Shown here: one piece after another, positions 5,280 through 48,839 of the stretch
Layout: every line of letters begins with the position of its first letter
Position numbering within the stretch: the first letter of the stretch is position 1
From: Chrysophaeum taylorii
Lineage: Eukaryota > Sar > Pelagophyceae > Pelagomonadales > Pelagomonadaceae
Assembly (NCBI GenBank): GCA_029834535.1
Contig: JAQMWT010000105.1
Span: 80,822-144,821, forward strand
DNA: 64,000 bases
Direction of reading: 5' to 3'
Notes under the pieces: model-generated
Told to the model about the DNA's origin: nothing
Database searches by the model: none
What the model saw: only the letters and a program-made list of their open reading frames with translations
Program-made: the position numbers and the translations under genes

Positions 5280-5617
5280 TGTAGGCGTAAACTTCTGCTT
5301 CTTAGGGCTTACCCTACCTCTTAGGGCATACCCTACCTCTCAGGGCTTACCCTACCTCCTTTCCTCTGACGTCAATGCCACCTGTATTGGCGACGTCACT
5401 TTATTTCCGTGACATTGCGTCACCCGTTTTTCTTCACCAAGGGTATCTTTTTATCATAAACGAACTCCCAACCTCAAGTTAAGAGGCTTGGCGAGTGACT
5501 TGTGTGTGGCGACGAACGGCCGGCCCCTAGCCTAGCACGCCGACCTCGAGTCTAGAGGTGATCGATGTGTCGGCGAAACACCCCTGAGCCGGGCCCGGAG
5601 CCGTTTCTCCCCCCACA
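5280..5617 (+). repeat. Gypsy-1 5' LTR
   Basis: It begins TGTAGGCGTAAACTTC, matching TGTGGCGGAAACTC at the 3' LTR start. It ends ..CCCCACA two bases before the primer-binding site, the same spacing as in Gypsy-2. It contains three tandem copies of a 20-base unit around AGGGCTTACCCTACCTC (about 5300-5360), present about once in the 3' LTR. The downstream part shares CTCAAG..GAGAGG..TTG and TGTGTGGCGACGAA with the 3' LTR. Confidence 0.7.
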
Positions 5618-5619
5618 AG

Positions 5620-5629
5620 TGGTGGAGGA
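5620..5629 (+). promoter_or_regulatory. Gypsy-1 primer-binding site
   Basis: TGGTGGAGGA lies two bases after the 5' LTR end. Gypsy-2 has the same ten bases at the same spacing (35973-35982). The leading TGG would pair with a tRNA 3' CCA end. I have not identified the primer tRNA. Confidence 0.6.
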
Positions 5630-6071
5630 CACGAGACTACGACGACTACATCGGTCGCCGCGAAACGAGCGTCTTGCTGTTGCTCTACACGGTCGGAATC
5701 AGCGTGCACGCCTTGATCAAGCGTGCCGAAACGTTCCCGAACGACCGTATTTACGCGTGAGTATCTCCGCGTACTTTTTTCGTTTACGTACATTATCCTC
5801 GAATCGTACGAGCGCGCATCGTTCTCGGCGACGCGCTATCCGGATTTGCCGCCGAGAGTATCCTGTCCGCGGAGTGGTGTCGCGAACCACAGGCATCTGA
5901 AGTGCACGAAGCAGAAGAGGTTCCCCGCACACGTTTTAACTTTGTTTTGGTCGACGTGAGTACGCACGATTACCGATTGCGGATCGCGTCGTGGGCATTG
6001 TTGAGCCCGAATTTGCGCCGAGTTGAATACGGCACCTTCACTCTTTTGGAACTGTTCTGCACTCGGTCGAC

Positions 6072-7381
6072 TTGGGCGAACGGCGATGGCGGCAGAGTCG
6101 GCTGACGAGCCGGCGAACCGCCCCCCAACTCCAATACGTCAATTCGAAGACGAGAAGGTTGACGATGTTGAAGAAGTCAGAGAGAGAGATGATGATGATG
6201 ACGACGACAACGACGGCGAATAGTCAAGCCGCCGACCGCCGACGGCGCCGCACCCAGGACCAGCTCCAGCGCCCGGCAGAGGTCCAGTTGACGACCAAGA
6301 AGAATACAACGCGATGGCGTACTTTCAAGCCGAGTTGGAAAGGACAACTGCGGCAAGGAAAGTTCTTGAAGCTGAGTTACGACGGCAGCAAGAGGAGGAT
6401 GAGGAGCTGCTGCGCCGACAAGAAATGGACGCGATTCGTGCAGAGCTGCAACGAGAACGAGAAAGGCTGCATGCACTCCGAGAAGAGTCCAATCGACGCC
6501 GCCGTGAGGCCGAACACAAGTCCGCAGATATGAACGCCGATGAGCCAAGAGGCACGGGTCGATGCCGTCGAGTTTCGGCGGAACAATCGGCTCGAGATCG
6601 TGACGCCGACGTTCCCAACGTAAGATCCACGAGCAACGACGATGAGGGCAAGGAGATGAAGTTTTTCAAGGGGTTATCCGAAGCGTTTTCGACAGCAATC
6701 ACCAAAGCCATCACGACCTCTAGACGACGATCGAGCGGTGGACTGAAGACCGTAACCTTTAAATTGATTATTGATGGACGTGATCAAGATCAATTCGACC
6801 TGGATTCGGCAGTCGTGATGACTGCGTTATCCGAGGAGCATTATAGCTTAGAGAAGCTGCGCTACCTTCTGCCGGTTCATCTCCGCGACACAGTTGCATC
6901 TCTTTTCAGGGAACATCTGCTAGAGCATGAAAGTCATTGCGAAGAGCTGGCACATCCCTCGCAATTCTACCTGCGGTTGGACGTTGGCGACGAGGATTAT
7001 GTATCAGAAGTCCGACGTTTACGGCAGTTCAATAAGCGTTTTAACCGCCGCGTTTTGGATTACTTCCGGTCTACCTGCCGACCTCCACGGATGCAAGAAG
7101 AGCTGATAAGAAAGTTAAGAGGGGTCACCCAGGACATGATTCCGAAGAAGAGTAGCGAACGCCGTGTGCATACCTACTGCACGAAATTTCAAAACGAAGC
7201 CCTGGCTTTTTGTGCCGCCTCTGGCCGCAGTGTCGATGATGTGGAGAACTTGGATCATTCGGCTCGCGGTTTGGAGTCGGAACAGCTCAGACGGAGGGTC
7301 CGCAACACGCGGAGCGGCAACCCAGACCTCTACACGACGTTCGCGGGGACGATGGCCTTGATCCTGCGGTTGGGAAAATGA
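6072..7381 (+). pseudogene. Gypsy-1 gag, N-terminal and capsid-like part
   Basis: Structural protein of the retrotransposon particle. The longest frame is 6314-7381 (355 codons). It starts with a highly charged coiled coil (residues about 1-70, Arg/Glu-rich). A conserved capsid-like region follows, recognisable by close similarity to Gypsy-2 gag (shared IDGRDQ.QF.LDSA, YFRSTCRPPR and PKKS.ER.V.TYCT.FQ.EAL). A GAT/GAC run at about 6187-6215 lies in the upstream part, which reads in another frame. The frame closes at 7381, 8 bases before the next gag frame begins, so gag is split by a frameshift or stop relative to Gypsy-2, where the two parts are continuous. Confidence 0.7.
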
Positions 7382-7388
7382 CCATGTT

Positions 7389-8648
7389 TTGTCGCTGGAA
7401 GAGAGGAAAGAGCGTGGCCAGCGACCGCCTCTAAACCCGAACCGGCCGCCGCGAGTACGTGGAGCTCGTGCTATGGCGACTTCCCACAGAGGACCAAAAC
7501 CGTCGGAAGATGAGTATTCCAAGCTATTCGACGACCCAACGGCCTGGTTCAAATTGCCGTGTATGAGCTGTGGGTTCTTCTTGTCGACTCACGATGATGA
7601 AGCGAATGTAGATTATGTGCGTACCCGCGATCCGGATCCTTATAATTGCGCCATGTACGCGCGTATCGAAAATGGAGGACAGCCAATGTCTCGCAAAGTG
7701 TGGGCGCGGCACCCTCGACGCAAGAAGGACGAGCCATCTAATCGACGCCGACACGAGAACCCGAAGCGCGAGGAGCCGCACAAGGACAGAAGCAACGCCA
7801 ACGCGACCATTGGCTCTGTTGATACGGCGCTGTTGAACGAGTTCCTCAAGGATTCCAAAGAGAATAAGGCGAATTCGACGTTCTCAGCGAAATCTCGATC
7901 GTCGAGTCGGCGGCGCAGTCGCAGTCCCCGACGGCGCAGTCGCAGTCCCCGTAAACGCCACCCGCGCGATGAAGAGGACAGGCACAGCGACCGATCCGAT
8001 GCCGGCCGCTACTGGGAAGAGTCGGGCCATTCGAGTGCTACCTTTGCGTTTCTTCGGTTGTCTTCGGCTATGACGGTGCCTTATGGCGCTTATTTCTACC
8101 CGAACACGGTCACCGAAACCAACCAATCCACCCAAGTCCCCACAGGTTCAACCACCCCGGATAGCCTCGCTCCTCAACAGCCTCTCGCACTGGTTCCGAT
8201 GGCTTCCGATGCGAGCACCGTTCGGAGGGATTCTACTCAGGCTTTCGACGAGTTAACAGGTGATGAACTGGAAGCTCCCTTGCGGTCCGCCGAGGACCAG
8301 TCGCTCCGAAGCGCCCCGCGCTACTGGACCGACGGCTCGGACTCCGGTGAAGAGTTTTTGGATCTTTTCGACCCAGCGTCCCGTTCTGCGGGACAACATG
8401 ATTCGTCGTACGACGACTCCACTCGTGTTTTTGACGATGCTGCGCTTGATGCCATTGGTTTGGACTCGAATTCTCCTCCGGATGATCAGCCAGAGGCTGC
8501 TCCAATTCCCGAGTTGATTGATCACCCCTCCGAAAGCGAGCTCTCCGATGAATCCAGCTATGTTACCGACGATGGCCTTTTGTTGCTAGATTTGACGTCG
8601 AGGACGACGCCTTCCTTTTCTGCAGCCCACCCCCGACCAACCGTTTAA
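7389..8648 (+). pseudogene. Gypsy-1 gag, zinc-binding and SR-rich part
   Basis: A 419-codon frame that continues gag. Near residues 58-90 it has a Cys/His cluster (CMSCGFFLSTHDD, then a Cys about 30 residues on). This matches CPHCGFFWTTHDED in Gypsy-2 and occupies the place where Ty3/Gypsy elements usually have a CCHC zinc knuckle. Residues about 170-195 are Arg-Ser repeats (RRRSRSPRRRSRSPRK). The C-terminal half is acidic and Ser/Asp-rich, and ends in a Pro-rich tract that also occurs in Gypsy-2 just before its deletion point. A nucleic-acid-binding role for the Cys/His and SR parts is inferred from position and composition. Confidence 0.65.
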
Positions 8649-8655
8649 ACCGCTT

Positions 8656-9843
8656 TTGATCACTTCGATCTCGAGTGCGACGGCCAAGGAGGTAGATGTG
8701 GATGCGCGAGGAATATCGGACGAGATGCTGCAAGATTCGTTCATGGAATCACAAGATGACTCTCGCGTTTCGCCAACAAAGGATTGCCAGGCGCCGCCCT
8801 CGATTGATGAGAGCCGCGTGATTTGGGAGGAACCCGAGCGGACTATGGCCGATGAGAGAAGCCGCCGCCAATTGTCCAATGTTGGTCGCGAGAGTGACGA
8901 TGATGAGACGAAATCGAGTTTACAGAAGCTGTGGACAAGAGTGCAAACTTTCTAGCGAAGAAACCGCCAGAACGGAAAGAAGTTCGATTCCGGCGTGAAG
9001 GCCAGGAGCTTTTTGCTGATGAAGGGTTAATCGGAGTCTGGTTTTGCTCTCGACAAGAGGATGACGAGGGTCGAAGCAATGGAAGAAGTCTGGAAGAGCT
9101 CCGATGTCGCAGTTGGGTGCGAAGAAGAGGCCGAAGCCCATTTGCTGAGCCCCGTCGAGCTGCCGCCGGAATGGGATAAGGAACCTCTAGACAAAGTTTT
9201 CGAGGATGAGACAGATTTTTGGACGACGGCATAATCCTTTATGTGGAGAATCGCGTCTGTGACAATGCCAGAGCCCGGCGACGCGAAGCCCAGGTCCAGA
9301 TGTTATCAAACACGCTCTCGCCGAAGGACGGAAGGACGATCGAACAAGATCGAGTGACCATCAGCTGTTTAGACCCGGGTACGTTAACGTTCATGGGAGG
9401 TCAAATGGACAAGGATCGAGACAGACCGAAGTACGCTACGACACTTGGCGTGGATGATGTTTCCTATATCTGTCGAAATTTGGCTGCCCAACTCGAGGAT
9501 GAAGGCCTGATTATGGGCCAAGGAGAGCTAGCTGCCCGTGAAACGCACCCTCTATGGGTCAGGTTTGAATAAGACGACCATCCATAAATGGATCGCTTTA
9601 CGCGTTGCATTGGCTGACAAAGTCACAGCCCCGATAGTTGCCATTGTCGCTGATACCGACCGATTGTTCCTGCTTGGAGGCCGCGACCTGCGCGTGATGG
9701 GAGCTGTCGTGGATTACCCTCGTAATCGGATTTCCTTTTATCGGACTCGAGTCGCGTATGGTCGCCAGTCGGTGTCGACGACAATTGGAGTACCACCAAC
9801 CCTGCCTTCTCGGATGTCAAAAGAATCTGATAGACCGAAGTGA
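8656..9843 (+). pseudogene. Gypsy-1 aspartic protease region, decayed
   Basis: Several frames together resemble a gag-pol linker followed by a retropepsin. The best segment is near 9680-9760: FLLGGRDLRVMGAVVDY followed by PRNRISFYRTRV. It fits the C-terminal retropepsin pattern (hydrophobic-LG.D.L...GA.VDY...I.F) and recurs in Gypsy-3 (VDFPHDRICF region, about 62860-62923, minus). An upstream FLAKKPPERKE segment (about 8950) is also shared with Gypsy-3 (about 63640-63690). I could not place the catalytic DTG confidently: VADTD at about 9650 is too close to the C-terminal motif, so the true site may be lost in a frameshift. The whole block is absent from Gypsy-2. Confidence 0.55.
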
Positions 9844-9982
9844 TCGCCTATGCCGCGCGCACCCTAATGGTTGAGCCCGGTCGAACCTATAATGTTCCAG
9901 TTTCCCTTTCGCAGCCCTGCAACCCGGTCAAGTCTTCGTCTCGACGTCTGCGAGCTACGAACAGCTAGGACTTGTCAGCGGC

Positions 9983-11267
9983 ATGTGTTCTTCCTGTGAC
10001 GAACAGGACAAGCGATCCGCTCGAGTGGCTGTGTTACAAGAAGTGCCGACCACTGTGATGCAAGGCGAGGTTATCGCTCTAGGCGACATTGTTCGGTACC
10101 AGGACGAGTTGAACGTGGAAGCAATCGAGGCTGTAACGAAGGAGCTTGGTGCCAGTTACGACAAAGGGAGTCTCTCCTTCACTGTCTCTGTCGAAAGTTA
10201 TTTGAGTCACAGCGATGAATCCTCTCCGCCGATGCTGTTGGGAGCCACTTCGAATGGTCTTCGTTCGCCTGAGCCAGTTGCGTCTGCTCGAAAGGACGAG
10301 ACAGCCGAGGACGATTTCGTTTACCGATCTGACGAGGACGAGCGGAGGTGTCGATACGCTACCAAAAGTGAGATTCGCAAGCGGTATGAAAAGGCCCAAT
10401 GGCTGCCGATCACCTATCGCAACGTGGCTATGCTGTTCAGCGGACCCGGGGGATGCACTTTAGGATTGCAACGAGCTAACGAGATGTGCGAGATGTCTTT
10501 TCGGGTCGTCTAAGCCCTCGACTCTCCCGAAACTGCCAACAAGATTCATCATGCGAACTTCCCGAATATCCCGATTGTTCAGCATACTCTCTGCGGTCGG
10601 TATGACACAGCCTTGCGTTTGATCAACATCATATTTGATAGGGAAAGAATGGTCATAATCGATGTGCATTGCTTCGCCGCCTTGCGTGCATTCCGCAGTG
10701 CAATCTGACTTTAAGGGATGTGGGCAAGGGTGTCACTGCAAGTCACAATGGACCATTAAACTGTGCAAGAAAGCCGGCTTTCTACTCTGGTTAATTGAAC
10801 AAGAAGCCTCGATCATCTCCTACGTGGCCCAATTGCACTCTTTCGTTTATGTCGTCAATTTTTACGACATCACGCCCAACCTGATGAGCTGCCGCGTGCG
10901 TTTGTTGATTTCCAGTCACCCGCTGCACCTGCGAGAAGCCCCAAAAAACTTGCTCGAACATGCACAAACCAAGTTCGCAGCACAGCCTGGCTATGGTGGC
11001 GAGCGACATTTAGTGCTTCAGATGAACGATCTTGGTTCGTCCCGAGACGCCACGGAGGCCGCCTACACGGTCACGCGTGTCCCTCTTCGAATGGGGCCCC
11101 ATCGCTCCGAGGCCAAGCCGTTGACCCTCAAGATGACCACCGAATTGTTGACTATGCCGCCGGATTATATGATTGGGCAGGCTTATCCAAGACAGCCTCG
11201 CTCAAAAATCTAGCGTCTATCGTACCTCCAGACACTCTCGCTATCCTAGCTACCAATCTGCACAACT
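9983..11267 (+). pseudogene. C5 cytosine-DNA methyltransferase inside Gypsy-1, decayed
   Basis: The remains of a DNMT-type enzyme, which would methylate cytosine at C5 using S-adenosylmethionine. Motif I is at 10424-10468 (AMLFSGPGGCTLGL, the F.G.GG...G SAM loop). After it comes VV-stop-ALDSPETANKI..ANFP (motif II region), where a TAA at 10511-10513 sits where acidic residues are usual. Motif IV has the catalytic ASPPC at 10671-10685. Motif VI is LLWLIEQ with the Glu at 10797. Motif VIII is YDITPNLMSCRVRLL at 10863-10907. A motif IX-like stretch (TELLTMPPDYM) lies near 11139-11170, and a motif X-like stretch (SIVPPDTLAILATNL) near 11215-11265. Order and spacing fit the family. One stop and at least two frameshifts (near 10640-10660 and 11170) kill it. 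It sits between protease and RT. Gypsy-3 has the same domain; Gypsy-2 lacks it. The 9983-10400 part is a Ser/Glu-rich linker without a recognised fold. Confidence 0.72.
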
Positions 11268-11269
11268 CC

Positions 11270-12690
11270 GTGTCCAAAGGATTCCATCAAATTGGTGAAA
11301 TCTTACCGACCGCGATGAGTCCCGCAGACCAGCCTTCCGAGAGTTATTTGCAAGTCACCGACACTACTCTCCGGCACGTGCAAGTTCCACTGATGAACAC
11401 GCGCATCCGTGTCGTCGTCGTCAAACAGGTGTCCGCTGCAGATCGACAGGATCGCACCAAGTGGGAACCTCCCGAAATACCTTTGCTTCCGCCTACAACA
11501 GATACGTCGGGGACGTCCCATGCTTCTTCTTCTGCTGACCCCCCCCGACAACCCAAATTGGACGTTCCGCCGGATCCTGAGCAGAATAAGGAACCGAAAG
11601 TGAAGAGCGAACCAAGCGTGCGAGTCAAAGGCGAGAAGATTAACAAAAGAAGTGAGGTTCAAATATGAGGAAAAGTTCGATGTGCCGTGGAAGAATGCAC
11701 CGCTTGATACAGATGGCGTGCCTTTGCCGCAAACTCCCGAGCACGTTAAGGATAATAAAGAGATGAAAGTGAAGCTGCCGACGAAAGAAGAACTCAAGAA
11801 AGTCGTGAAGGAATTTGGAATACCGGACAATCCGCACCTGTGTGATGATGATGCAAAGCTGATGCTCAGTCACTGCGTTCAATATGCATGGGCATTTTCC
11901 GACCCGATCATGAGACCAGTGGACTCGCCGCCGGTATCTTTGCGTTTTAAGGACGCGAACCCAAGGCCGATCAAGATGACGCCTTATCGTTTGATTCCGG
12001 CTAAGCTCGAGATTGCCTTCGCAAGCAGAATACTGTGTGGTGTCGCGATGGAGTGATCCCACTTGCGAATTCTCCAAGAGGATTTCCCGTGCTCGTGCTG
12101 CCCAAGAAAGGAGCTGAGATTGGGACGTCGAACGCTATTCGTGCCGCCGTAGACTTGCGACAGCTCAATGATCAGCTGGTCAATGATAGCTGGCCGACCA
12201 TTCGACAAGATGATGCCTTAGCCTTTCTTGCGATGCGCCGCTGGAGAACATGTATTGACATACGATGGGGATATCATAATCTTCGTTTGGAACCTGCAGC
12301 TCAGCACGCTGTCACGATGGTCAGCCCTCTTGGAGCCCGTAGTTTCCTACGCTTGCTTCTAGGAGTGAAAACCGCTGGAGCCCTCTTCTGCAAGCAGATG
12401 GCCAGCGATGTGTCGACATGGATGTACAAGGATTTGATTGCTTTCATTGGCGATACATCATGATGGGATCGGACGATCTCCACCGTCATCAACAAGTTAT
12501 AATCGAAGTTTTGTGCCACTTGGCGCAACGAGGATATAGCGGTCGAACCGCGAAGTTTCACCTTCTCCAGGATGATATCGAGTTTCTGGGCCATATTTCT
12601 ACTCCTGACGGTTTGAAGCCGAAGCCGAATCCTAAGACGCTGGAAGCACAGCAGAACATGCCAATTCCATTGACCCTTCCCAACACTTAA
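11270..12690 (+). pseudogene. Gypsy-1 reverse transcriptase, decayed
   Basis: Shows strong similarity to the intact RT of Gypsy-2 (39031-40300), spread over three frames (11270-11668, 11652-12056, 12035-12690). Recognisable blocks are KMTPYRL (primer grip side), FPVLVLPKKGAEIGTSNA, AVDLRQLNDQLVNDSWP, CIDIRWGYHNLRL (first catalytic Asp), and STWMYKDLIAFIGDTS. In Gypsy-2 the last block reads AFVDDIMMGS, so the first Asp of the DD pair is Gly here and the frame stops just after. FHLLQDDIEFLGHISTP follows. Loss of the Asp pair means no polymerase activity even if the frameshifts were ignored. Confidence 0.8.
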
Positions 12691-13613
12691 CCAAAGACTC
12701 AGATGAGGCCCTTCATCGGCATGAGCAACTACTGCCGCCGCCGATACGTAGACGACGACTCCTAAATTGTGGAGCCGCTGAAACGGGTGTGTCTTGAAGG
12801 TGTACCGTTCAAGTGGACGCCCGAATGCCAGGGATACGATCATCGCTGCCTTAGTCGATTCCAGAGGAGTGTATCACCCTGACTACGACTCGCCGTTTCA
12901 GATCCGTTCGGGCGCGTCTAAAGATGGTCTTCGCGCCTACCTCTTCCAAATTGTCGAAGTCAAGGACGATAGTGGAAAGGTTTCGCGAGAGGAGCGAGTG
13001 ATCGAGTATTGGAGCCGCGCTGTGCCGAAGGAGATGCGATATTACGAGCCCCGTAGGTTGGAGCTATTTGCAGTCATCCTCTCCCTGGAACATTTTCGAG
13101 CATACGTCGAAGGTCATAGGACGGTTCTCGAGACGGATCATCGCAACTTGATGTTGTTGCGGAAGGCTACTCACTCTTCTGGCCAACTCGCTCGATGGAC
13201 GATGCGACTCGCGAACTTTGATCCCTAACTTGGATACCAAACTTGGATACAAGCCGGGAAAGTCGCCGGGAATGATGATCCCCGACTGTCTCTCTCGCAG
13301 TCCCATAGATCAACATGCTATCGAGACTGACGAGTTCGGCGAGCCTCTCAATCACGCTTGTTTGGTGTTCCAAGAGTTGCCGAGACCTATCGATGAGAAC
13401 GGAGTGCCCTTATCCGGATGCCATGTCATATTGTCGTTTATCACGACCGACTTAATGGAGGAGGAGGAAACAGACCCTCCAGACGATCCTATGTATTTAG
13501 CAGTCAGTCTCCAACGCGACGATGCAACGTCGGACGTGTCGATTACAGACCCAGCCGAGTCGGATGCTGCTGCTAACCGGGGGCACATCGATAAGAGACC
13601 CCTGACAATCTGA
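12691..13613 (+). pseudogene. Gypsy-1 RNase H and connecting region
   Basis: Begins with a damaged copy of the RT tail (FIGMSNYCRR at about 12715). An RNase H-like domain follows in frame 12794-13228 (QIRSGASKDGLRAYLFQ, EPRRLELFAVILSLEHF, LETDHRNLMLL). The first catalytic position, RSDAS in Gypsy-2, is RSGAS here, so a catalytic Asp is lost. 13218-13613 is the acidic linker toward integrase, which in Gypsy-2 is continuous with it. Confidence 0.75.
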
Positions 13614-15414
13614 CGATCGAGGAGATAATTCGAGAGCAGAAGGAAGGAAGATCCTACTTGTGAAAATATCCTCTCGCGGATGGCTCAGGGCCACTCTCTC
13701 CGCCGTTATGGAGCGAACACCCGCTCCGAACGTGTAAAAGAAGTTCTCTACCGTGCTGCCGTAGATTTGCACCCAAGGATTGTCGCTCCTGCTAAACTCC
13801 GTATCATTCGACTGTACCATGATAACACCGTCAACGGTGGTCACATTTGGTCGCGAGAGTACTGTTCAGTCCACATTGGAGCGCTCGCTTTTGGTGGCTG
13901 CACATGTCGAACCAAGTTGGAGCCTTTAATTATTGGCCCAATGTTTGGTGTGTCAGAAAGCTCGTACGCCCGAGCCGAAGAGAGCCGGTCTCCTCCTACA
14001 ACAACCCGTGTATGATGGTGATGGTGCCGTTCTTTGTATGGATCTGTTCGGACCCTTGACGTATCTTATCGTGTTTTTCGACCCTTTCTCCCATTTTCTG
14101 ATTTTGGACGTCCTTCACAACAAAACTGCTGAGTCTATTCTCGAATCCTTTGTCACCAACATACTGCTCAAGGGATATTTGCCTCAGTTGATCCGTACGG
14201 ACAATGGGAAAGATTTTGTCACCAAGTTGATGGAGGAGTTTTGTCAGCTCTTTCTAAAATTCGCGATCAGACCAAGATCCGTAGAGATAGAAAATTTTTG
14301 AATTAGGGTTAGTACCCCCTATTCTAGGGTTAGTGCCCTTAACTTTAGTACCTTTTGATTTAAGAAAACGCGGTGTTTTTCACACCGGCTGTCCTCGTTC
14401 TAGGAGACAGATTCGAGGGCAGACTACCACTGCTCTCTCGCTCTGCTGAAGGGCAACACAGTTGAAATTACTGTTCTCTAATCCCTTATCATGCCCAATC
14501 GAATCCAGCTGAGCGTGTTGTGAACCGCTTTATCGAGGCTTTTTTTCGTGCCTGCCGTCAGTGCCGGAATATTACTGACTGGCCCGCTTTCACTCACAAT
14601 GTCGCATTTTGCTACAATCGCAAGTTCATTCCGGGCACCGAGATATCATGCTTCGACTCAATCGCCAGGCCACGATGTGGATACTAGCAGGCTGCCTAAG
14701 ACTCGTACGGATGCGCTGACTGAAACCCGAGAGGCGTTGAAGTTTTACACACAAGTTTTTGTCAGAGACGCCCGTGACAAGGCTCAGCGTAAGCAGAAGT
14801 TGGCCTACGATGCAGATCATGTGGATTGTCGAATACGATGAAGGAACCCATGTTTAGCTGTACATTCCTCACGCTCAGAACAAGTTGCGTCCGGAATGGC
14901 GAGACCCGTTTCTGTTATCGTCGAACGACTTTCGCCTGTCACCTACAAGAATGAGTCTCTTGACTCACCACGGCAGCGACGCTATGCCCATGTCCAGCAG
15001 ATCAGACCTGTTATGGTCCCTCCGATAGTCGATCGCGCAATTCCAAAGCCGAAAGAAACTTTCCGCGACGACTACAACCATGGCAAGTTCGTTGTTTACC
15101 GGATTCCCGATCACAAGAAGTCCAATTGGCGCAAGAAGATTTATGTCGCCGAAGTTTATGAGCCTTACGAGAATGAATGACCCTGTTGCACTTCTACTAC
15201 TCGGATCTTGGTCCACAACACAAAAAAGTTTCGTAAGCCTACTTCTCATCTGTCTACCCGCAAGCTCAAGCCAGAATACGACAAGGATTTTGACGGTAAA
15301 AGTTTCACCGACAAGTCCAAAGTCACCGCTAGTACTACGCCCTGTGTCACCGACTTTTCTCCGCACGAGATTGATGTGTTAGTTCCCAAGTTCGCGCAGC
15401 GGTCGCGTTCCTGA
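13614..15414 (+). pseudogene. Gypsy-1 integrase and C-terminal extension, decayed
   Basis: Split among frames at 13680-14015, 13933-14301, 14548-14841, 14896-15180 and 15208-15414, and physically interrupted by a MITE at 14279-14478. Recognised parts are an HHCC remnant, the core (VLCMDLFGPL, IRTDNGKDF), then after the MITE SNPAERVVNRF-like DNA and the C-terminal part (ITPVMV.P.VDRA.PKPKETFRDDY and HGKFVVYRIPD). The equivalent intact protein is in Gypsy-3 (57308-58858). Confidence 0.75.
14279..14478. mobile_element. MITE-like element, copy 1, inside Gypsy-1 integrase
   Basis: A 200-base insertion that begins TAGAGATAGAAAATTT and ends AAATTACTGTTCTCTA, which are imperfect inverted repeats of each other. 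It is flanked by ATCCG and ATCCC, a probable 5-bp target duplication with one mismatch. Comparison with Gypsy-2 shows the integrase sequence resuming directly after it. A second copy with the same ends is at 35203-35571. No coding capacity; superfamily unassigned. Confidence 0.65.
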
Positions 15415-15525
15415 GGGGAGCCTCTGTCGTCAAGCGCACGTACAACCGAATTAGGTCCCGAGATGCTCAAGATGCAAAGGCTCTCTCTCGCGCTGAGGCT
15501 AGCTCGAAATCTCACTCGCTCGTCC

Positions 15526-15825
15526 TGTGGCGGAAACTCGCTCCTGCTTCTTTAGGGGAAGGCTTACCCTACCTCCTTTCCGTCAATGGTGCCGCCTGTA
15601 TATTGGCGACGTCAGTTGTTTATTTCTGTGACATTACGCCACTCCCCTTTTCTTTCTTTCTTTCTTCAGCAAGAGTATCTTTAGCATAAACGAAGAAGTC
15701 CCAGCCTCAAGGTGAGAGGTTTGGCGAGCGAGTTGTGTGTGGCGACGAAGGGCCGGCCCCTCGGCTAGCACGCCGACCGCGAGTCTTCTAGAGGTCATCG
15801 GTGTGTCGGAGCCGTTTCTCCTGGG
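15526..15825 (+). repeat. Gypsy-1 3' LTR
   Basis: Begins TGTGGCGGAAACTCGC and aligns with the 5' LTR through GAGCCGTTTCTCC (about 15808-15821). The last bases are not shared, so the end is uncertain by about 10 bases. It differs from the 5' LTR by a missing duplication block, a CTTT run (about 15650-15668) and many substitutions. Confidence 0.65.
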
Positions 15826-30710: not shown

Positions 30711-31099
30711 GTTCCTAGCTATTCCACGACAACGCCCTACCCACCATCGCCGTTCTTCTCAACAGCGCAACAATCCCAATGACTCCAACAACACCCAACA
30801 ACACCAACCCACCAAAACCAACACCAGTAACACTACCTTTTCTGCTCCTATGCCTACTCCAACCTTGACTGATTCTAGTTCCACTCCGCCGCTTTTCTTA
30901 ATACCACCACCTATTACACATCTTTGCACATTTCTGCCAATCAAGATAATTCCAAGTCAGCGTGTGTACCGCCGATTTTCTGACGAAAGCACATCAACAA
31001 CCCCATCCCACGGAAGCCCCTCGTTTTTGTGAAGGAAAAGTGTTTTTGTGGAAGCCCCTCGTTTTTGTTTTTTAGCTCCCATTGCACAGGCGCCCTTCG

Positions 31100-31640
31100 T
31101 TCTGTATTTTCCGCTATTCGTTGCTCAACCCCCCGTTCTGTATTTTCACCTCGTCGCTGCTCCTCTCCTCGTTCTGTATTTTCCCCTCGTCGTTGCTCCT
31201 CTCCTCGTTCTGTCTTTTCACCTCGTCTTTGCTCCCCTCCTCGTTCTATATTTCGCCTATTCGTTGCTCCACTCCCCGTTGTGCACTTTCAGCTATTCGT
31301 TGATCCACTCCCCGTTGTGCATTTTCAGCTATTCGTTGATCCACTCCCTGTTCTACATTTCTGCTATTCGTTGATCCACTCCCCGTTGATCCACTCCCCG
31401 TTGTGCATTTTCAGCTATTCGTTGATCCACTCCCTGTTCTACATTTTCTGCTATTCGTTGATCCACTCCCCGTTGTGCATTTTCACCTATTCGTTGATCC
31501 ACTCCTCGTTGTGCATTTTCACCTATTCGTTGATCCACTCCCTGTTCTACATTTTCTGCTATTCGTTGATCCACTCCCCGTTGTGCATTTTCACCTATTC
31601 GTTGATCCACTCCTCGTTGTGCTTGTCGGTTTTGGTAAAA
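31100..31640 (+). repeat. 36-base minisatellite in Copia-1
   Basis: About 15 tandem copies of a 36-base unit, for example CTATTCGTTGATCCACTCCC followed by CGTTGTGCATTTTCAG. The left units are a variant form (CTCGTTCTGTATTTTCCCCT core). Because 36 is a multiple of three and the unit lacks stops, long frames are open on both strands (plus 31029-31820 and two others; minus 31353-31652). These are probably not genes. Confidence 0.8.
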
Positions 31641-33002: not shown

Positions 33003-34561
33003 ATGTCTTCCTTCCCCTCTCCAAATCCTGCACGTCGGTTACAAGCCATTGCCAAAGAATATCATTCCCTCCGTCAGCTCGGTTGCTGGGATGTTGTTCG
33101 TGTTCCTTCTACTTTTTCTGGCACCAGATATCTGCCCTTTGAAGTGGGTCCACCGCACGAAGTATGAATCTGGCCGCTTCAAATCGTACACTGCTCATCT
33201 CGTTGTCCGCGGTTACACCCAGGTTCACGGCATTGCTTACCACGACACGTACCGTCCTGTAGATGTCATCTCTGCTTTCATACAAGCCCCTGTCTGGCGT
33301 TGCTGTTCACGACTGGGATTTGCATAAGTTGGATGTCAGCTCCGCTTTTATCCAAGCTCCCATTGACGAAGACATCTATGTCTGGCCACCCGAAGGTTAT
33401 GCTCCTCGCCAACCCACCGATGGTTTCAAAATCATTTACACGCACCGTCGCTCTTGGTATGGTTGCAAACAAGCTTGTCGTAATTGGTGGCTTTATTTGG
33501 CACGCTTTCTCGTCAGTGACTGTGGCTTCGTCCGCGGATCTGGTGACACTTGCCGTTACAAGCTCGTGCTTAATTCTACCGTTGTCCTACGTCTCGTTCT
33601 TGTCGTCGATGATCTTCTTGTGGCGCACCCTCGTCCTTGCCTTGGTCATTACCCAGCCTTCTTCCTCCGTTTCCGAACCTTCACTGATGTTAACGAGCTT
33701 GATCTGACCACTTACGTTGGTCTCCGCATTACGCGTGCTCGCGCACAACCAGACTTGACTCCCGCTCCCAAAGTTCTTCCTCTTTCCGCGGCTGCTTCTC
33801 CTGCACCTGGCTCCCCTGCTCACGTCTTCATGGCACGCATCCCTTTTCGTCGTATCTTCCGTTGTGTCTTGTTTATCTCTGTCATGACTCGCCCTGATAT
33901 CACTTGGTCCGTCAATCAGTGTGCGCATTTTTTTTTTTTACACAATCCTGGTACACCCCACTGGCACGCTTTATCCCACACCCTTCGTTATCTCAATGGT
34001 TCTCTAGATCTTGCCCTTCTTCTTGGTCGCGATTCTACCCTTCGTCTCTGTGGTTATTCCGACTCCAGCTGGACCGACGACCCTGATGACCCTGATGACC
34101 GCCACTCCACTACTGACTTTTGTTTTCTCCTTGCTGGCTCTATGATATCCTACTGCTCACGCTCGCAGTACCTGCTCGCCCGCTCCTCTTTTGAAGCTGA
34201 ATTGCTCGCTCTTTACGCCGCTACTGCTGAGCTCTCTTGGCTTCTCAAACTTTTTGATGCCTTTGATCTCCCTCGTCTCACGGTCCCAACGTATGTCGAT
34301 AACACCACCACCGTCACCCAAGTCCGTCTCCAATGTCTCATGCGGCGCACCCGCCATATTGCCATTCGCTTTTACAGCACCGCTGAATATCATCGCACCC
34401 ACATCATTGATCTCCAACACAATCCCCGCCTTGACAACCTTAGCGATATCTTCACCCGTAGTACGGAAGCTCCTCCCTTCCTCCGGCTTCGTGCTCGTTA
34501 CCTCACCTCGCGACTTCGCCCTGATATCTCCTGTCTCTTTCTGCCACACTGCCTCTCCTGA
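33003..34561 (+). pseudogene. Copia-1 reverse transcriptase-RNase H
   Basis: Encodes the Copia RT start (KEYHSLRQLGCWDVV, KWVHRTKYESG, TYRPVD) in two short frames. The long frame 33263-34561 (432 codons) follows: LDVSSAFIQAPIDEDIYV (first catalytic Asp), LVLVVDDLLVAHP (Asp pair intact), MTRPDITWSVNQCA, then RNase H (GYSDSSWTDD, SRSQYLLARSSFEAELLA, VDNTTTVTQV). A partial duplication of the ..SAFIQAP segment at about 33260-33350 marks the frame break between the two parts. A TTTTTTTTT run at 33926 adds residues in NQCAHFFFLHNPG. The RT active-site residues look intact, but the N-terminal frameshift makes it a pseudogene. Confidence 0.8.
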
Positions 34562-34694
34562 CGTCTTCCTTCAAGCTTCTCCTCTGTGAGCGTCTCACTT
34601 ACCCCTTTTTCCCTTCTTCCTTTTCTTTCTTTTCCAGCACCTGTGTGAGGACCTCACTTCCCCCTTTTTCCTTTTCTTTCTTTTCCAGCACCTG

Positions 34695-34842
34695 TGTGAG
34701 GAAGCTATGACACTTACCTCTGCACCACGTCCCCATTATAGTTCTCACATCCCATTTCAGTTGTCTTTAAATGTCGACTGCTAAGAGGGGGGTGTGTGGG
34801 GGGAGCATGAAGGATGTGGGTGGGTCCATTTCAGTTGTCACA
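34695..34842 (+). repeat. Copia-1 3' LTR with inserted LINE scrap
   Basis: TGTGAGGAAGCTATGACACT to GTTGTCACA, 74 bases once the insertion at 34766-34825 and one copy of its 14-base target duplication are discounted. Confidence 0.7.
34766..34825 (-). mobile_element. LINE 3'-end scrap, 60 bases
   Basis: TTTAAATGTCGACTGCTAAG to GGATGTGGGTGGGT, flanked on both sides by CCATTTCAGTTGTC (34752-34765 and 34826-34839), a 14-bp target duplication inside the Copia-1 LTR. The sequence equals the last 60 bases of the LINE at 46386-47465. Confidence 0.8.
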
Positions 34843-35645: not shown

Positions 35646-35970
35646 TGTGGCGGCAACTCCTGACCGCTAAGCCTAAGGCTTACCCCCCCTCTCTCAAGGC
35701 TTGATACCCGTTCAACGGGACACCTTTCCCGATCTTAGTGACATCATACCTCTCTTTTGTGAGAAGCATTCTTGCTGTATTCTTGTAGTTTCCTTGCTAT
35801 CATATTCCATCTCTCCATCTTGTTGAGAGGCTTGGTGAGCGTGAGCAAGGTGTGTGGCGAGCTTATCCGACCCCGCGTCCGTGTTTTCCTCGTTCAGTGA
35901 GGTCTCGGACGAGTCGGTGAGTACCCCCTTTGTCACCCGGGGGTCGGGAAGTTTTTTCTGTGCCGCCATA
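35646..35970 (+). repeat. Gypsy-2 5' LTR
   Basis: TGTGGCGGCAACTCCTGACC to GTGCCGCCATA. The ten terminal bases are inverted repeats with one mismatch. No clear TATA box was identified. Confidence 0.9.
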
Positions 35971-35972
35971 CG

Positions 35973-35982
35973 TGGTGGAGGA
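35973..35982 (+). promoter_or_regulatory. Gypsy-2 primer-binding site
   Basis: TGGTGGAGGA lies two bases after the 5' LTR, identical to the Gypsy-1 site. Confidence 0.65.
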
Positions 35983-36400
35983 TATGAGATCGTGCGACTA
36001 CATCGGTCGCCGTCGAGCGAGTGCTGCCGTACGTGTTGTATTTCGAGGTCCGGATTTGTACGTGCGCCCTGATCAAGCACACGGAGTTCCATTGGACCGG
36101 TTTGCGTTGAGAATATACGCGAACGTTGTTTGTGTTCGTACGATCCGAGTGACGACGAACACGCGTGCGAGTTGGAATCGCAGCGCATTCTCCCGGGAAT
36201 TGATTTTGGTATAGCTGAACGGTGGAAGCTGTTTAGCGAGTGGGATCGCTACCCACGGGCATTTTTGAATTGCCAGCGGATTGGAATTCCGTGAGTGCTG
36301 TTTTTACAGCGACAGATAGCGTTGTTGGAATCAACGTGAATTACTTCGAGTGATCGGATCCGGACGTGTTTCGAGATTCTTGATCGATATTTGATACAGT

Positions 36401-39076
36401 ATGGAGATAAACGCAGACGTGCGTGAGGAAGAATCTCCTCCAGTTCTTCCCGCCGCCCCTGAGATAGGCCGCGAGGAAGGTGAATTAAGAGAGGCCAAGG
36501 CAGTCGACGTTGCTGACGTGCCCCCTGATGTGCCTCCGGATGCTGCCATTTTTTCGCCGTTGAGTCCAACGACTCCGGATCGTGGCGAGCGTGTTACTAT
36601 TGAGCGCGGATCTGCAGCCCGAATTCGACTTCGTGAAGACCTCGAGCGGAGACGTCGCGAAAATGAACGATTAGCTGAGCTTTTGCTCGTGAAAGGGCTG
36701 AAGCGAAAGAGGAAGCGGCTCGACGAGAAGTTGATATGCTCAATGATGCATTACAGCAAGAGATCGAGACCTTGAAGACCCTACGCGAAGAGGTTGAACG
36801 ATTTCGTCGTGAACGAGATGAATTGTTAGCCGAACGTACGCGTCGGGAGAGTAGCCGCGAACGACCCGTGAGTCGACCCGAACCGGAAACGCCCGTGAGG
36901 CCGCCTGAACCGGAAAGGAACACTGAAACGGGGAATGAACCTCCGCCCCGAGTCGATACGGAGAATGAGGGTAGGGCGGACATTGAGAATGAAAGTACGA
37001 AAATTTACGGGAATTATCGCGGGGAATATCGCAGACGGTTGCCAACGCCTTCGAAAAGGGCAACTTGAGCCGATCCCATCGACCCACTTCCAGTTTGAAG
37101 CCTGATACCTTCAAACTCGTCATCGACGGCCGAGACCAACGGCAATTTAATTTGGATTCGGCGGCGATGATGCATACTTTAGCAGATGACCATTACTCGG
37201 TCGAATATTACGTTATTTACTACCTGTGCATCTACTGGACACCGTTGCACCAATTTTTGAGGAACACTTGCAGAAATACGAGGAGCTCTGCGATGAGCTA
37301 CCACACGGTCCGTCGTTTTACTTGAAATTAGATATTGACGATGAAGAGCATGGAGTCTCGGTTCGTCGTATCCGTCGTCTTAACAAGACGTACTGCGACA
37401 AGATTTTGGATTATTTTAGATCGACTTGCCGACCTCCACGCACGCAGCAGGAGCTGCTTGACAAACTGCGGAAGGTCACCCAGGCTTCAGTTCCGAAGAA
37501 GTCTGGGGAGCGGCACGTCCAAACGTACTGTACCCGATTCCAATCTGAAGCCTTGGAGTTTTGTTCCGTGTCCAGCCGCACGATGGATGATGTCGATATC
37601 CTCGACCAGCTTATCAGTGGATTGACGTCCAAGGAGTTGAGGACCCGTGTGCGGACTATGAGGAGCGGACATCCTGATAGTTACGTGACTTTTAAGTCGA
37701 TGGTAGCGCTTATTACGCGGCTCGAGAACGACTTACGAAAGTTGATGGAGAAGGAGAAGGACCAATGCCCACCTAATCCGAAATCGAATAAACCGCCGCG
37801 ATGGCGCGGAGTTCGAGCTATGGCCTCCGATCAACAAGCCAAGCAAGATGCGGATAAACCGTCTGGGAATACGGACCCGCTGATTTTACGAGATCCTTTT
37901 TTGTGGGGCAAGCGAACGTGCCCGCACTGTGGGTTCTTCTGGACCACCCATGATGAAGATGAACACGGAAATCGCGTAGTTTGCAACCGCGATCCGGATC
38001 GTCATTACTGTGCGATGTGGAAAAGAATTCGTAAGCAGAAGAAGCAGCCCACATCGCGGTCCGATTGGGCAAAGCGTGATGATGCATCTAATGCGAACGC
38101 CACGCACGGATCGGAGCCTTCTCATGAAATTCAAACGGCCGTCATCGATCTTGGAATCACAATGGCGACCATGGTGAGCGAGGTCAGAAGCATCAAGGAT
38201 ACTACGTCGTTTTCTACACGACAGCGAGACGGACGATCACCTTCTAGACGATCGTCACGCCGACATCGAAGCCAGAGCCCTAATCGAAAAGCCCATACTG
38301 CTCAAGACAGCCCGAGTCCTTGCTGTCACCGGAGCTCTAGTCACAATTCGCGCCGGCGCCGACGTCATCGACATTACGATGACGAGTATGACGGAGGCAG
38401 ATATCAGGATAGTTCGGGACATTCGAGCGCATCTTTCGCGTTCAAATCTTTATGCGACGCGCCGCCAATGTCGGGGGTTGTCTTTTACCCGACGGCGCGC
38501 CCTGCCCGAGTCTCCGACGATGTTGCCGATGTCGCTGTGACGAGCAGCCATCGTTTGCAACAGGAGCAACATACCACCAACGCTCGGATCGTTCGGTGGC
38601 CTTCTACATCGTATGTGGAAGCAATGTCAGATGCTACTTGGGATTCTCCGCACTATTGGGAAGACTCAGATTCGGAGACCGACGAACCCATGCCGCAGGT
38701 TCCAGTGTCCCCCCATTCGTCAATGTGCATGTCTTGCAGGGCAGTTCACGATGATGACGTTAGACCTTTTGAGTTGACGTCGGGGACGACGTCTTCTTTT
38801 CCTACGCCCCCCCCCGAGACCGTTTTAGCCGTTTTAGCCGATGTTTTAGCCGATACAGTTTTGGTCGCAGCAGAGCAGACCACAGCGGCGCCGATGGAGG
38901 AGAAGTTGACGGGAATGTCCGATTTGATGGACGAGAAACGACGATTACCAGAAGTTCCTATGCTTCCGCTTCCAACTGATGCGCCGGGGACGGCTCATGT
39001 TTTTTCTGCTGCCCCCCCAGACAATCAAAAGTGGACGTTCCGCCGGATCCTGAACCTGAACAGGAGCCGAAAGTAA
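36401..39076 (+). pseudogene. Gypsy-2 gag polyprotein, frameshifted
   Basis: The frames are 36401-36775 (acidic N-terminus and start of a coiled coil), 36736-37068 (coiled coil, EEVERFRRERDELLAERTR, then a Glu/Pro-rich linker), 37065-37325, and 37226-39076 (616 codons). The last holds the capsid-like part (YFRSTCRPPRTQQELL), the Cys/His cluster (CPHCGFFWTTHDED..C..CAMW, residues about 231-268), an Arg/Ser-rich stretch and an acidic tail. It reads straight into the pre-RT linker because the protease-methyltransferase block is gone. Frame changes near 36720, 37065 and 37220 would prevent a normal Gag product. Confidence 0.75.
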
Positions 39077-41406
39077 GGAGCGAGCCGAATGTGCGCGTCA
39101 AAGGTGAAAAGATCAATAAGAGCCACCCTGAGGTGAGGTTCAAATACGAAGAAAAGTTCGATGTGCCATGGAAGGATGCACCGCGCGATGCGGACGGTGT
39201 ACCGTTACCGCAGATTCCCGAGCACGTCAAGGACAATGATGCGATGAAAGTCGTAATTCCGACGAAGGAAGAAGTTGAAAAGGTTGTTCGAGATCTAGGA
39301 ATTCCCGACAACCCGCATCTGGATGATGATGCGAAGATGATGTTGAGCCATTGCGTGCAATACGCGTGGGCTTTCTTTGATCCGATTATGAGACCCGTGG
39401 ACTCGCCACCGGTTTCTCTACGCTTTAAAGACGCAAACCCACGACCGATCAAGATGACGCCGTATAGGTTGACGCCAGCAAAGCTCGAGTGTCTCAGAAA
39501 GCAGATCACTGAGTGGTGTCGCGATGGAGTCATCCGACCGGCGAACTCTCCGTGGGGATTTCCTGTACTGATGCTGCCTAAGAAAGGAGCAGAGGCCGGG
39601 ACGTCGAATGCTTTTCGTGCTGCAGTTGACTTGCGTCAGCTCGATGATCAGCTGGTCAATGACAGTTGGCCGAATATTCGTCAAGATGATGCTTTGGCTT
39701 TTCTTGCCATGCGCCGTTGGCGGACGAGCATTGATATTCGATGGGGTTATCATAACTTGCGTTTGGACGCCGCTGCTCAGGACGCTGTTACTATGGTTAG
39801 TCCACTTGGAGCCCATAGTTTCTTGCGCTTGCCTCTAGGAGTAAAAGCAGCAGGAGCTCTCTTTTGTAAGCAGATGGCTAGCGATTTGTCCACATGGATG
39901 TATAAGGACTTGGTCGCGTTTGTCGACGATATTATGATGGGATCGGATGAACTCCATCGACATTTACAAGTTTTGATTGAAGTGTTGTGCCATTTAGCAC
40001 AGCGAGGATATAGTGGACGAACTTCGAAGTTCCACCTCCTCAAGGATGAAATCGAGTTTTCGGGACATATTTCGACTCCGGAAGGCTTGAAGCCGAATCC
40101 CAAGACGTTAGAAGCGTTGCAGCAGATGCCGATTCCCGGTACGTTGCCCAATACGTCCCCGAAGACCCAGATTCGATCTTTCATTGGTATGAGCAACTAT
40201 TGCCGCCGATATGTGAAGAATTATTCGAAGATTGTGGAGCCGCTTAGGCGATTGTGTCTTGAAGGCGTTAAGTTTGAGTGGACGCCTGAGTGCCAAAAGG
40301 CATGGGACGCGATCATCGAAGCTTTGGTGGATTCTCGTGGAGTTTATCATCCTGACTACGATCTTCCTTTTCAGATCCGCTCGGATGCTTCCAAGGATGG
40401 TCTGGGTGCGTATCTTTTTCAGCTCGTGGAAATCAAGGACGAAACTGGCAAGGTGACACGAGAGGAACGAGTAATTGAGTATTGGAGCCGAGCTGTGCCG
40501 AAAGAGATGCGGAACTATGAGCCTCGCCGGCTAGAGCTCCTGGCAGTTATTCTGTCTCTTGAGCATTTCCGCTTGTATATTGAAGGTCACAAGACGATCC
40601 TTGAAACAGATCATCGCAACTTGACGTTTTTACGAAAGGCGAAGCACTCGTCTGGGCAGTTGGGTCGATGGGCGATGCGGCTCGCCAATTTTGATCCTGA
40701 ATTGGGTTACAAGCCAGGGAAGTCGCCGGGAATGAGCATCCCTGACTGTCTCTCTCGCAATCCTATAGATCATGTCATCGAGACGGACGAGTTTGGTGAA
40801 CCCTTGAACCACGCGTATCTAGTGTGCCAAGAACTCCCTCGTTCTGTTGATGATGAAGGAGTACCTTTACCTGGGTGCCATGTCATTCTGTCGTTTGTTA
40901 CGACTGAGTTGCCTGTGGAGGAAGAGGAAGAGGAAGAAGACCTCGATGATCCGATGCAATTGGTCACGTCTCATGCTACGAAACAACGTCAGAAGCAACG
41001 ACTTCAGACCCAGCCTAGTATTTTCCGTGATGCCGATGATTACCAAGAGCACATCGACAAGATTTCGGATAATTTGACTTTGGAAGAGATAGCCAAAGAG
41101 CAGATCACTGATGCTACTTGCGAGGACATTCGTTATCGCATGGCTCAGGGCCATTCTCTTCGTCGGTACGGAGCCAATTATCGCTATCAAGTGGTGAAAG
41201 GAGTTCTCTACCGTGCCGCACCCGACTTGCACCCGATGATAGTCGCACCCCGAACTTTACGGACGCGCATCATCCGATTGTACCATGACACACCTCTCAA
41301 TGGTGGTCATATGGGTCGTCAAAGTACAGTGCAGTCGATACTTGAACGTTTTTGGTGGCCTCATATGTCTAATGAGGTAGGTGCTTTTGCATTGCTGGTT
41401 GCATAG
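39031..41406 (+). CDS. Gypsy-2 reverse transcriptase-RNase H-integrase N-terminus
   Basis: A 791-codon open frame. RT blocks are FPVLMLPKKG, AVDLRQLDDQLVND, SIDIRWGYHNLRL (catalytic Asp) and VAFVDDIMMGS (catalytic Asp pair, with FVDD where YLDD or FVDD is usual). The RT tail IRSFIGMSNYCRRYV follows. RNase H shows QIRSDASKDGLGAYLF, EPRRLELLAVILSLEHF (Glu) and LETDHRNLTFL (Asp). Then come an acidic linker and the integrase HHCC start (LYHDTPLNGGHMG, FWWPHMSNEV). The frame ends just before the second Cys pair: a small indel near 41395 moves CKKARTPEPK into the next frame (41406-42845). The catalytic residues of RT and RNase H all look intact. No protease precedes it, so processing would need another source. 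Confidence 0.88.
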   Translation: MDVPPDPEPEQEPKVRSEPNVRVKGEKINKSHPEVRFKYEEKFDVPWKDAPRDADGVPLPQIPEHVKDNDAMKVVIPTKEEVEKVVRDLGIPDNPHLDDDAKMMLSHCVQYAWAFFDPIMRPVDSPPVSLRFKDANPRPIKMTPYRLTPAKLECLRKQITEWCRDGVIRPANSPWGFPVLMLPKKGAEAGTSNAFRAAVDLRQLDDQLVNDSWPNIRQDDALAFLAMRRWRTSIDIRWGYHNLRLDAAAQDAVTMVSPLGAHSFLRLPLGVKAAGALFCKQMASDLSTWMYKDLVAFVDDIMMGSDELHRHLQVLIEVLCHLAQRGYSGRTSKFHLLKDEIEFSGHISTPEGLKPNPKTLEALQQMPIPGTLPNTSPKTQIRSFIGMSNYCRRYVKNYSKIVEPLRRLCLEGVKFEWTPECQKAWDAIIEALVDSRGVYHPDYDLPFQIRSDASKDGLGAYLFQLVEIKDETGKVTREERVIEYWSRAVPKEMRNYEPRRLELLAVILSLEHFRLYIEGHKTILETDHRNLTFLRKAKHSSGQLGRWAMRLANFDPELGYKPGKSPGMSIPDCLSRNPIDHVIETDEFGEPLNHAYLVCQELPRSVDDEGVPLPGCHVILSFVTTELPVEEEEEEEDLDDPMQLVTSHATKQRQKQRLQTQPSIFRDADDYQEHIDKISDNLTLEEIAKEQITDATCEDIRYRMAQGHSLRRYGANYRYQVVKGVLYRAAPDLHPMIVAPRTLRTRIIRLYHDTPLNGGHMGRQSTVQSILERFWWPHMSNEVGAFALLVA

Positions 41407-42845: not shown

Positions 42846-43149
42846 CCGCTAAGGCTTACCCCCCCTCTCTCGAGGCTTGATACCCGTTCAACGGGACACC
42901 TTTCCCGATCTTCTTAGTGACATCATACCTCTCTTTTGTGAGAAGCATTCTTGCTGTATTCTTGTAGTTTCCTTGCTATCATATTCCATCTCTCCATCTT
43001 GTTGAGAGGCTTGGTGAGCGTGAGCAAGGTGTGTGGCGAGCTTATCCGACCCCGCGTCCGTGTTCTCCTCGTTCAGTGAGGTCTCGGAAGAGTCGGTGAG
43101 TACCCCCTTTGTCACCCGGGGGTCGGGAAGTTTTTTCTGTGCCGCCATA
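42828..43149 (+). repeat. Gypsy-2 3' LTR
   Basis: A 322-base copy of the 5' LTR with the same ends, followed by the CTTGG target duplication. Confidence 0.9.
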
Positions 43150-43154
43150 CTTGG

Positions 43155-48718: not shown

Positions 48719-48839
48719 AGCGTGTAGCAGAACGGACAGACTATGTGAGGAAGCTATGACACTTACCCCTCCACCACGTCCCCATTATAGTTCTCACATC
48801 CCCATTTCAGTTTTCTCACATGGTACCAGAAAATTTGTT

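Follow-up and report, generated by a model that had tools for sequence, protein, structure and literature searches.

The window analysed here, a stretch of 64,000 nucleotides from the pelagophyte Chrysophaeum taylorii, contains at 5344–15809 what is, judging by its sequence, an old and dead Ty3/Gypsy element from an abundant family. Its parts are listed in Table 1 together with two further family copies. A broken domain of a C5 cytosine methyltransferase (MTase) lies between its protease-like region and its reverse transcriptase (RT). The order of the domains is that of Ty3/Gypsy elements. In an open-frame relative, L031 (G000:C5:542400-551000), the 3' part matched RVT_1 (PF00078), RT_RNaseH (PF17917), Integrase_H2C2 (PF17921), rve (PF00665) and Integrase_p58_C in this order in Pfam. 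The window element, which is collinear with L031 across 9079–15488, has an RNase H match (PF17917, 12782–13228, E = 1e-22) followed by an integrase match (PF00665, 13930–14301, E = 1.2e-6) that at 29.1 bits remains just below the cut-off of 32.6. Flanking long terminal repeats (LTRs) were found as well, with an identity of 84% over the best 151 columns (88% over 92 nt) in the window element and of 96% in the copy at 35646–43154. A Pfam scan of the gag-like frames at 6224–8648 gave no match; no Pfam protease was matched in L031, and the retropepsin reading of the protease-like region is by eye only.

Table 1. Features of the window element and of two further copies of its family (positions in the window).
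Feature	Position	Strand	Basis
LTR-like repeat, 5' side	5344–5573	+	79–84% identity to 15561–15809; best-aligned part 5429–5573
Gag-like open frames	6224–8648 (6224–7381, 7362–8648)	+	by eye like the gag-like frame at 37190–39073
Protease-like region and spacer, broken	9079–10366	+	collinear with the L031 region before the MTase, 40–78% identity, E down to 2e-50
C5-MTase domain, broken	10367–11464	+	65–78% identity to the L031 domain, E = 1.6e-139
Motif I (SAM binding), LFSGPGGCTLGL	10433–10468	+	motif placement
Motif IV, ASPPCVHSA (ASPPC with catalytic Cys, 10671–10685)	10671–10697	+	motif placement
Motif VI-like, LIEQEAS (LIEQE replacing ENV)	10791–10811	+	motif placement
Motif VIII, SCRVRLL (R.R)	10887–10907	+	motif placement
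TVTR stretch	11064–11087	+	motif placement
Motif IX-like; motif X-like (LASIVPPDT)	11142–11159; 11210–11236	+	L052 counterpart matches PF00145 positions 257–321
Linker, MTase to RT	11498–11921	+	62–76% identity to L031
RT and RNase H, Ty3/Gypsy type	11922–13478	+	75–93% identity to L031
Integrase, downstream of RT (Gypsy order)	13485–15488	+	49–70% identity to L031
LTR-like repeat, 3' side	15561–15809	+	self-comparison with 5344–5573
Second family copy, LTRs 96% identical; protease-like region and MTase absent	35646–43154	+	match to L031
Third family copy; decayed MTase at 61081–62109 (36.5% identity to L031)	57311–63634	-	match to L031

The initial annotation had placed a retrotransposon-borne C5 methyltransferase at 9983–11267, with motifs I, IV, VI, VIII and an X-like motif in the right order between protease and RT. 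The enzyme class and its position in a Ty3/Gypsy element agree with the match to L031 (E = 1.6e-139) and with the relatives that pass the PF00145 cut-off. All these motifs were placed in order on the + strand, though across two reading frames, and it is this split that marks the copy as dead. The proposed start was too early: position 9983 takes in spacer, and the domain proper begins at about 10367. A Pfam scan of nine pieces of the element's broken frames (E ≤ 0.01) returned RNase H and integrase only and no MTase, so the MTase identity of the window copy rests on its relatives. The profile match foreseen by the annotation is absent from the scanned frames of this copy but present, above the cut-off, in the open-frame relatives L031 and L052. 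The region also matches the distant domain of L052, a member of a second clade (E = 1.9e-43), and its motif I stretch has a weak match (32.3 bits, E = 0.001) to P0004, a stand-alone MTase of prokaryotic/phage type; among 200 codon shuffles of 10300–11500 the highest scores were 23.9 bits with the L052 query and 23.5 bits with the P0004 query. For a second stand-alone MTase (P0005), the Copia-type domain described below and two host MTases, no match to the window region was listed at E ≤ 10. On these alignments, it is almost certain that the region is a C5-MTase domain belonging to the element.

The open-frame relatives fall into two clades. In clade 1, to which the window element is closest, L031 lies within a frame of 3063 amino acids (aa), 2172 of which were analysed, and a second frame of 3067 aa is open through MTase and RT. 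The L031 domain (L031:5885-7000, - strand) matches PF00145 with 24.9 bits (E = 1.7e-5, cut-off 22), mainly in the motif I-II part. Clade 2, formed by L052 and L053, is 57–67% identical to L031 in RT-RNase H and 37–38% in the MTase, which occupies the same position. L052 has a single frame of 2129 aa running from a gag-like region through the MTase into RNase H, and its domain matches PF00145 in two stretches (37.7 bits, E = 2.1e-9), the better one covering profile positions 257–321 (motifs IX-X). From the shared place and the homology we infer that the MTase was acquired before the split into the two Gypsy clades seen here. The glycine-rich SAM loop, the PC dipeptide, the Glu of motif VI and the R.R of motif VIII are present in this order, and F.GAGGS.LG, ASPPC, EQE and R.R are invariant in all six rows of alignment A3, which spans both clades. 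ASPPC is likewise invariant in 12 of 12 clade-1 rows (alignment A1), where motif I and the Gln deviate in single rows. The canonical ENV of motif VI is absent, being replaced by EQE in the six A3 rows with the Glu retained.

Profile comparison by hhalign aligned the Gypsy family with nine stand-alone MTases (eight from the protein database and one from the host) over motifs I-IV, with a probability of 98.3% (E = 1.7e-14). The profile phrog_116 ("DNA methyltransferase") was matched by L052 (3.8e-12) and L031 (1.2e-6). Membership in TIGR00675 (dcm) was not reached, the scores being 21.8 bits for L052, 18.1 for L031 and 35.2 for the Copia-type L012 against an NCBIfam cut-off of 100.65. When the best 8000 candidates by shared words were scored in the protein database, A3 gave ten weak MTase matches (E from 1.7e-4 to 9e-3, the best with 33% identity over 29% of the query) and A1 none at E ≤ 1e-3. 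P0004, the best match in this database, scores as a member of both phrog_116 and TIGR00675. Sequence searches of the PDB gave no significant match for L031, L052, profile A1 or the Copia domain, and the top matches of A1 (E = 0.34) and of the Copia domain were unrelated chains. The best non-significant neighbours of L031 were DNMT2-type tRNA enzymes (E = 0.04), and the sole one of L052 was the cytosine-specific methyltransferase 8yf3 (E = 0.048). No DNMT3 chain was among the one match of L052 to E = 10 and the two of L031 to E = 1, all of them non-significant. AlphaFold2 modelling gave mean pLDDT values of 32.6 for the Gypsy domain (A1) and 32.7 for the Copia domain (A2), too low for use. IMG/VR scans with two peptide patterns per domain found no relative of the Gypsy or the Copia MTase domain, and a viral source is therefore unsupported.

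The window regions 9893–10513 and 10659–11213 have at least 150 genome matches each, with identities, apart from the self-match, of 52–75% and 67–72%, respectively. Given so many matches in the same genome to both regions, the window element is a member of a family with less damaged copies. The clade-1 MTase was found at no fewer than 218 distinct loci, the clade-2 MTase in at least 123 matches (about 113 loci counted) and the Copia domain in at least 129 matches, several of which are pieces of one copy; in each case some may be allelic. Contig pairs such as C10/C297, C25/C521 and C6/C268 repeat matches at parallel coordinates, so that in places both alleles have probably been assembled and the locus counts may include allelic copies. 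An MTase was listed just upstream of at least 100 of the 150 clade-1 RT matches and of at least 31 of 49 further RVT_1 matches. Among the 50 clade-1 RT matches for which none was listed, all three that were checked have the domain and a fourth, in the window, lacks it.

Related elements devoid of the domain, which the annotation had named as evidence against its reading, do exist, and as far as seen they are deletion derivatives. The copy at 35646–43154 lacks the protease-like region as well as the MTase, and its gag-like frame continues directly into the linker. In the clade-2 copy L058, about 1108 bases containing the MTase are absent and there is a frame shift. This junction is common to four loci (C335, C209, C248 and C394) that are 95–100% identical, possibly a mobilised non-autonomous lineage. 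Clade-2 flanks are about 0.2 kb apart at C51 and C311 (80 kb) and about 0.9 kb apart at C619, compared with about 1.18 kb at the nine loci where the spacing is complete. The MTase-less copies look, from their sequences, like deletion derivatives copied in trans and not like an ancestral MTase-free state. Splicing was also considered as their origin in clade 2 and was rejected for L058, where the junction has no GT-AG borders.

In 40 pairs drawn between a clade-1 subfamily of 10 copies and another of 4, the median dN/dS was 0.09 at a dS of 1.4; within the subfamilies it was 0.20 (range 0.02–0.49) and 0.23 (0.12–0.76) at a dS near 0.1. The sample consists of unbroken copies only (14 of 21 retrieved) and leans towards constraint. 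As dS exceeds 1, this bias is insufficient as the sole cause of the low between-subfamily ratio, and the substitution patterns show the clade-1 MTase to be under purifying selection. By part, dN/dS was 0.066 in motifs I-VIII, 0.07 in the TRD-IX-X part (finite in 16 of 40 pairs) and 0.215 in the tail. For the Copia MTase it was 0.18 (9 copies). Most retrotransposon DNMT sequences in the available part of an earlier survey had Ka/Ks ratios below 0.2 (PMC5890265).

CpG decay was sought as a methylation footprint and was not seen between clade-1 copies, in which CpG-to-TpG/CpA differences stood at 0.88 and 0.92 of the level of the GpC control. The same ratio was slightly raised in the Copia family (1.24) and was 1.71 in the single clade-2 pair, which comprises 7 versus 4 events only. 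Six Gypsy stretches had observed/expected CpG ratios of 1.05–1.32; the ratio was 1.07 for the window MTase region by itself, 1.18 for the whole window, 0.99–1.04 for two Copia loci and 1.31–1.47 for three host loci, which are richer in GC. The lack of CpG decay in clade 1 would mean that methylation occurs in a non-CpG context, that a methylated C does not mutate faster or that the copies are little methylated.

The phenomenon proved broader than the single Gypsy element of the initial annotation, given that two Gypsy clades and one Copia family carry C5-MTase domains. PF00145 had 57 matches in the genome. Twenty of these loci were taken with their flanks: one is a DNMT5-like gene (L011), one a small stand-alone C5-MTase (L022) and 18 match the domain of L012, forming a Copia-type family (L012-L021 and L023-L030, on contigs C96, C314, C104 and others of G000). 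A single 1952-aa frame of L012 contains DNA_methylase (PF00145, 1.1e-7) and RVT_2 (1.6e-38), with rve at a sub-cut-off 17.2 bits, and L013 also has PF00145 and RVT_2. Five loci of the family with long frames were scanned, and RVT_2 was found in three (L012, L013 and L018) and not in the frames of L014 and L017. In the L012 MTase, ENV is intact and the catalytic Cys is retained, the latter as LPC instead of PPC, and its motif I is changed or degraded. Between MTase and integrase, a long stretch of L012:3597-9452 (residues about 608–1000) has no Pfam match.

The Copia domain aligned with stand-alone MTases in hhalign (95.2%, E = 2.9e-8), and its profile A2 had no match at 0.01 among 7852 candidates of the protein database. 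Compared directly by hhalign, the Gypsy and Copia domains gave no match, the profiles being thin. The two were not grouped in the tree, in which their split is weak (64/79), 9 of 14 inner branches are under 80, branches are long and no Dnmt3 sequence is included. Both domains lie, by eye, downstream of a protease-like stretch. We consider it conceivable, though somewhat doubtful, that Ty1/Copia and Gypsy elements independently captured C5-MTases of a non-Dnmt3 type, possibly prokaryotic or viral, and fixed them directly after the protease, converging under one pressure on new cDNA.

Regarding the host loci, the open frame L011:2968-9225 encodes 2086 aa, includes both a DNA_methylase and an SNF2 domain and represents a DNMT5-like host gene. 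The stand-alone C5-MTase of 360 aa (L022:4822-5901, on C634) lies near LHC-like matches on the opposite strand. LHC proteins had 84 matches in the genome, some of them exons of one gene, and fucoxanthin chlorophyll a/c proteins were among their best PDB matches, whose names came from several groups; this indicates an alga with a red plastid.

The best explanation, fairly likely when taken as a whole, is an abundant Ty3/Gypsy family that carries an additional C5-MTase in its long Gag-Pol frame and would methylate its own cDNA with it. The MTase would be made as part of Pol, packaged together with the RT and act on cytosines of the element's cDNA (or of a replication intermediate) before integration; the methylated cDNA would then be marked as host-like, or a later chromatin state would be set. 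On the basis of its conserved motifs the domain is predicted, with good confidence, to be catalytically active. That the element's own cDNA is its main substrate is suggested by analogy, and we give this part slightly less than an even chance. The initial annotation, which is supported in part, had likewise proposed that the element may methylate its own cDNA, or else interfere with host silencing. Points that weigh against the explanation are EQE in motif VI, the low dcm scores, the lack of significant PDB matches, the missing CpG decay in clade 1 and the existence of MTase-less copies. Self-methylation of cDNA has been proposed for retrotransposon DNMTs (PMC5890265, available part). Among the readings considered it has the strongest precedent, since the same source found that some of these enzymes methylate CG de novo; the SymbioLINE enzyme that was tested there was inactive on DNA in yeast. 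These data suggest that the elements may use the chemical mark that normally serves for silencing them.

It is unlikely that the C5-MTase fold has been retained as a pseudo-enzyme with a non-methylating role, such as binding nucleic acids, aiding the folding of Pol or spacing its cleavage. EQE instead of ENV in the six A3 rows, the missing CpG footprint of clade 1 and the degraded motif I and LPC of the Copia domain would fit such a role, but SPPC, R.R and the Glu of motif VI do not vary, motif I is glycine-rich in nearly all rows and dN/dS is lowest across motifs I-VIII. That the enzyme acts on RNA, either that of the element or its tRNA primer, and not on DNA appears rather improbable: the profile matches are to DNA MTase families, and the DNMT2-type neighbours of L031 (E = 0.04, non-significant) are offset by 8yf3 as the only neighbour of L052 (E = 0.048, also non-significant), the lack of a CpG footprint in clade-1 DNA being in favour of RNA. 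Similarly improbable is that the elements, instead of evading the host, methylate themselves for silencing after insertion, as self-restraint, or act in trans on other copies. This would agree with a copy number in the hundreds in a compact genome that has a DNMT5-like gene itself, and with deletion derivatives that could be controlled in trans, but clade 1 has no sign of CpG decay. Chance resemblance of the motifs or a host gene adjoining the element has practically no probability left: the missing Pfam MTase match of the window copy itself would fit it, but it is refuted by the recurrence of the domain at no fewer than 218 clade-1 and at least about 113 clade-2 loci, by the open frames shared with the RT, by the profile matches above the cut-off and by the shuffles far below.

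The MTase-bearing elements found here can be compared with several known systems, which are cited from the available parts of the publications. The annotation had presented its case as an addition to those of dinoflagellates and a charophyte, and this is supported against PMC5890265, which describes DNMT-bearing LINE, DIRS and Gypsy elements in these organisms. KnitGypsy-Dnmt3 of Klebsormidium nitens likewise combines an LTR Gypsy-type Pol frame with a C5-MTase under purifying selection (PMC5890265). Its domain is Dnmt3-related and its repeats are DIRS-like, whereas the elements reported here have ordinary-looking LTR pairs and a Gypsy MTase whose detectable neighbours are of prokaryotic/phage type, the comparison being by description. 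SymbioDIRS-Dnmt3 and SymbioLINE-Dnmt of Symbiodinium also have MTase copies within retrotransposon frames, numbering hundreds in each genome, with Ka/Ks below 0.2 for the majority (PMC5890265). Those are LINE and DIRS elements, in contrast to the LTR elements with rve integrase found here, and SymbioLINE-Dnmt has CG depletion whereas clade-1 Gypsy has no excess CpG decay. LTR Copia and DIRS elements with DNMT3 are mentioned in PMC12344493, which ascribes them to earlier streptophyte and dinoflagellate reports; by description, these Copia elements resemble ours in carrying a C5-MTase, which is there called DNMT3. In PMC6338049, Gypsy and DIRS elements encoding DAM or DCM are noted in several groups including stramenopiles, the kinds of enzyme not being separated. 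DIRS elements with Dam-like N6-adenine MTases (PMC5890265, PMC6338049) also have a methyltransferase as accessory domain, but the enzyme is unrelated, modifies another base and resides in tyrosine recombinase elements. The Gypsy domain also aligns with stand-alone C5-MTases of prokaryotic/phage type (TIGR00675 dcm, phrog_116) over motifs I-IV, and over motifs IX-X in Pfam, but these enzymes are free-standing, have ENV in motif VI and share only distant identity with it.

The available parts of PMC9998398 and PMC3145265 contain no mention of MTase-bearing retrotransposons, and no report of this case was found in open-licence PMC full text. Set against these publications, what is new is a Gypsy MTase with detectable neighbours of prokaryotic/phage type, its presence in two deep Gypsy clades, and Gypsy and Copia carriers in one algal genome of 70.8 Mb. 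A further lineage is thereby added to those in which retrotransposons carry the enzyme class used for silencing them, here in a compact genome and with copies numbering in the hundreds. One and the same genome has open frames, sister copies that lack the MTase and two superfamilies, and so offers a natural experiment on the role of the MTase for the element, in which copies with and without it can be compared for methylation, expression and spread.

Some minor observations concern other repeats. Contig G000:C696 has at least eight RVT_1 matches and may represent an organelle genome that contains group II introns. Within the window, 33872–34762 and 48741–49795 form a repeat pair of 93–95% identity, and the frame at 34001–34558 resembles, by eye, the terminal part of a Copia RNase H, so that this is probably another LTR element. 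The stretches 51781–52933 and 31098–31622 are self-similar, which suggests tandem arrays (steps of about 111 and 36 bases, by eye), and at 53524–56218 blocks of 0.7–0.8 kb are repeated within 3 kb with an identity of 93–95%.
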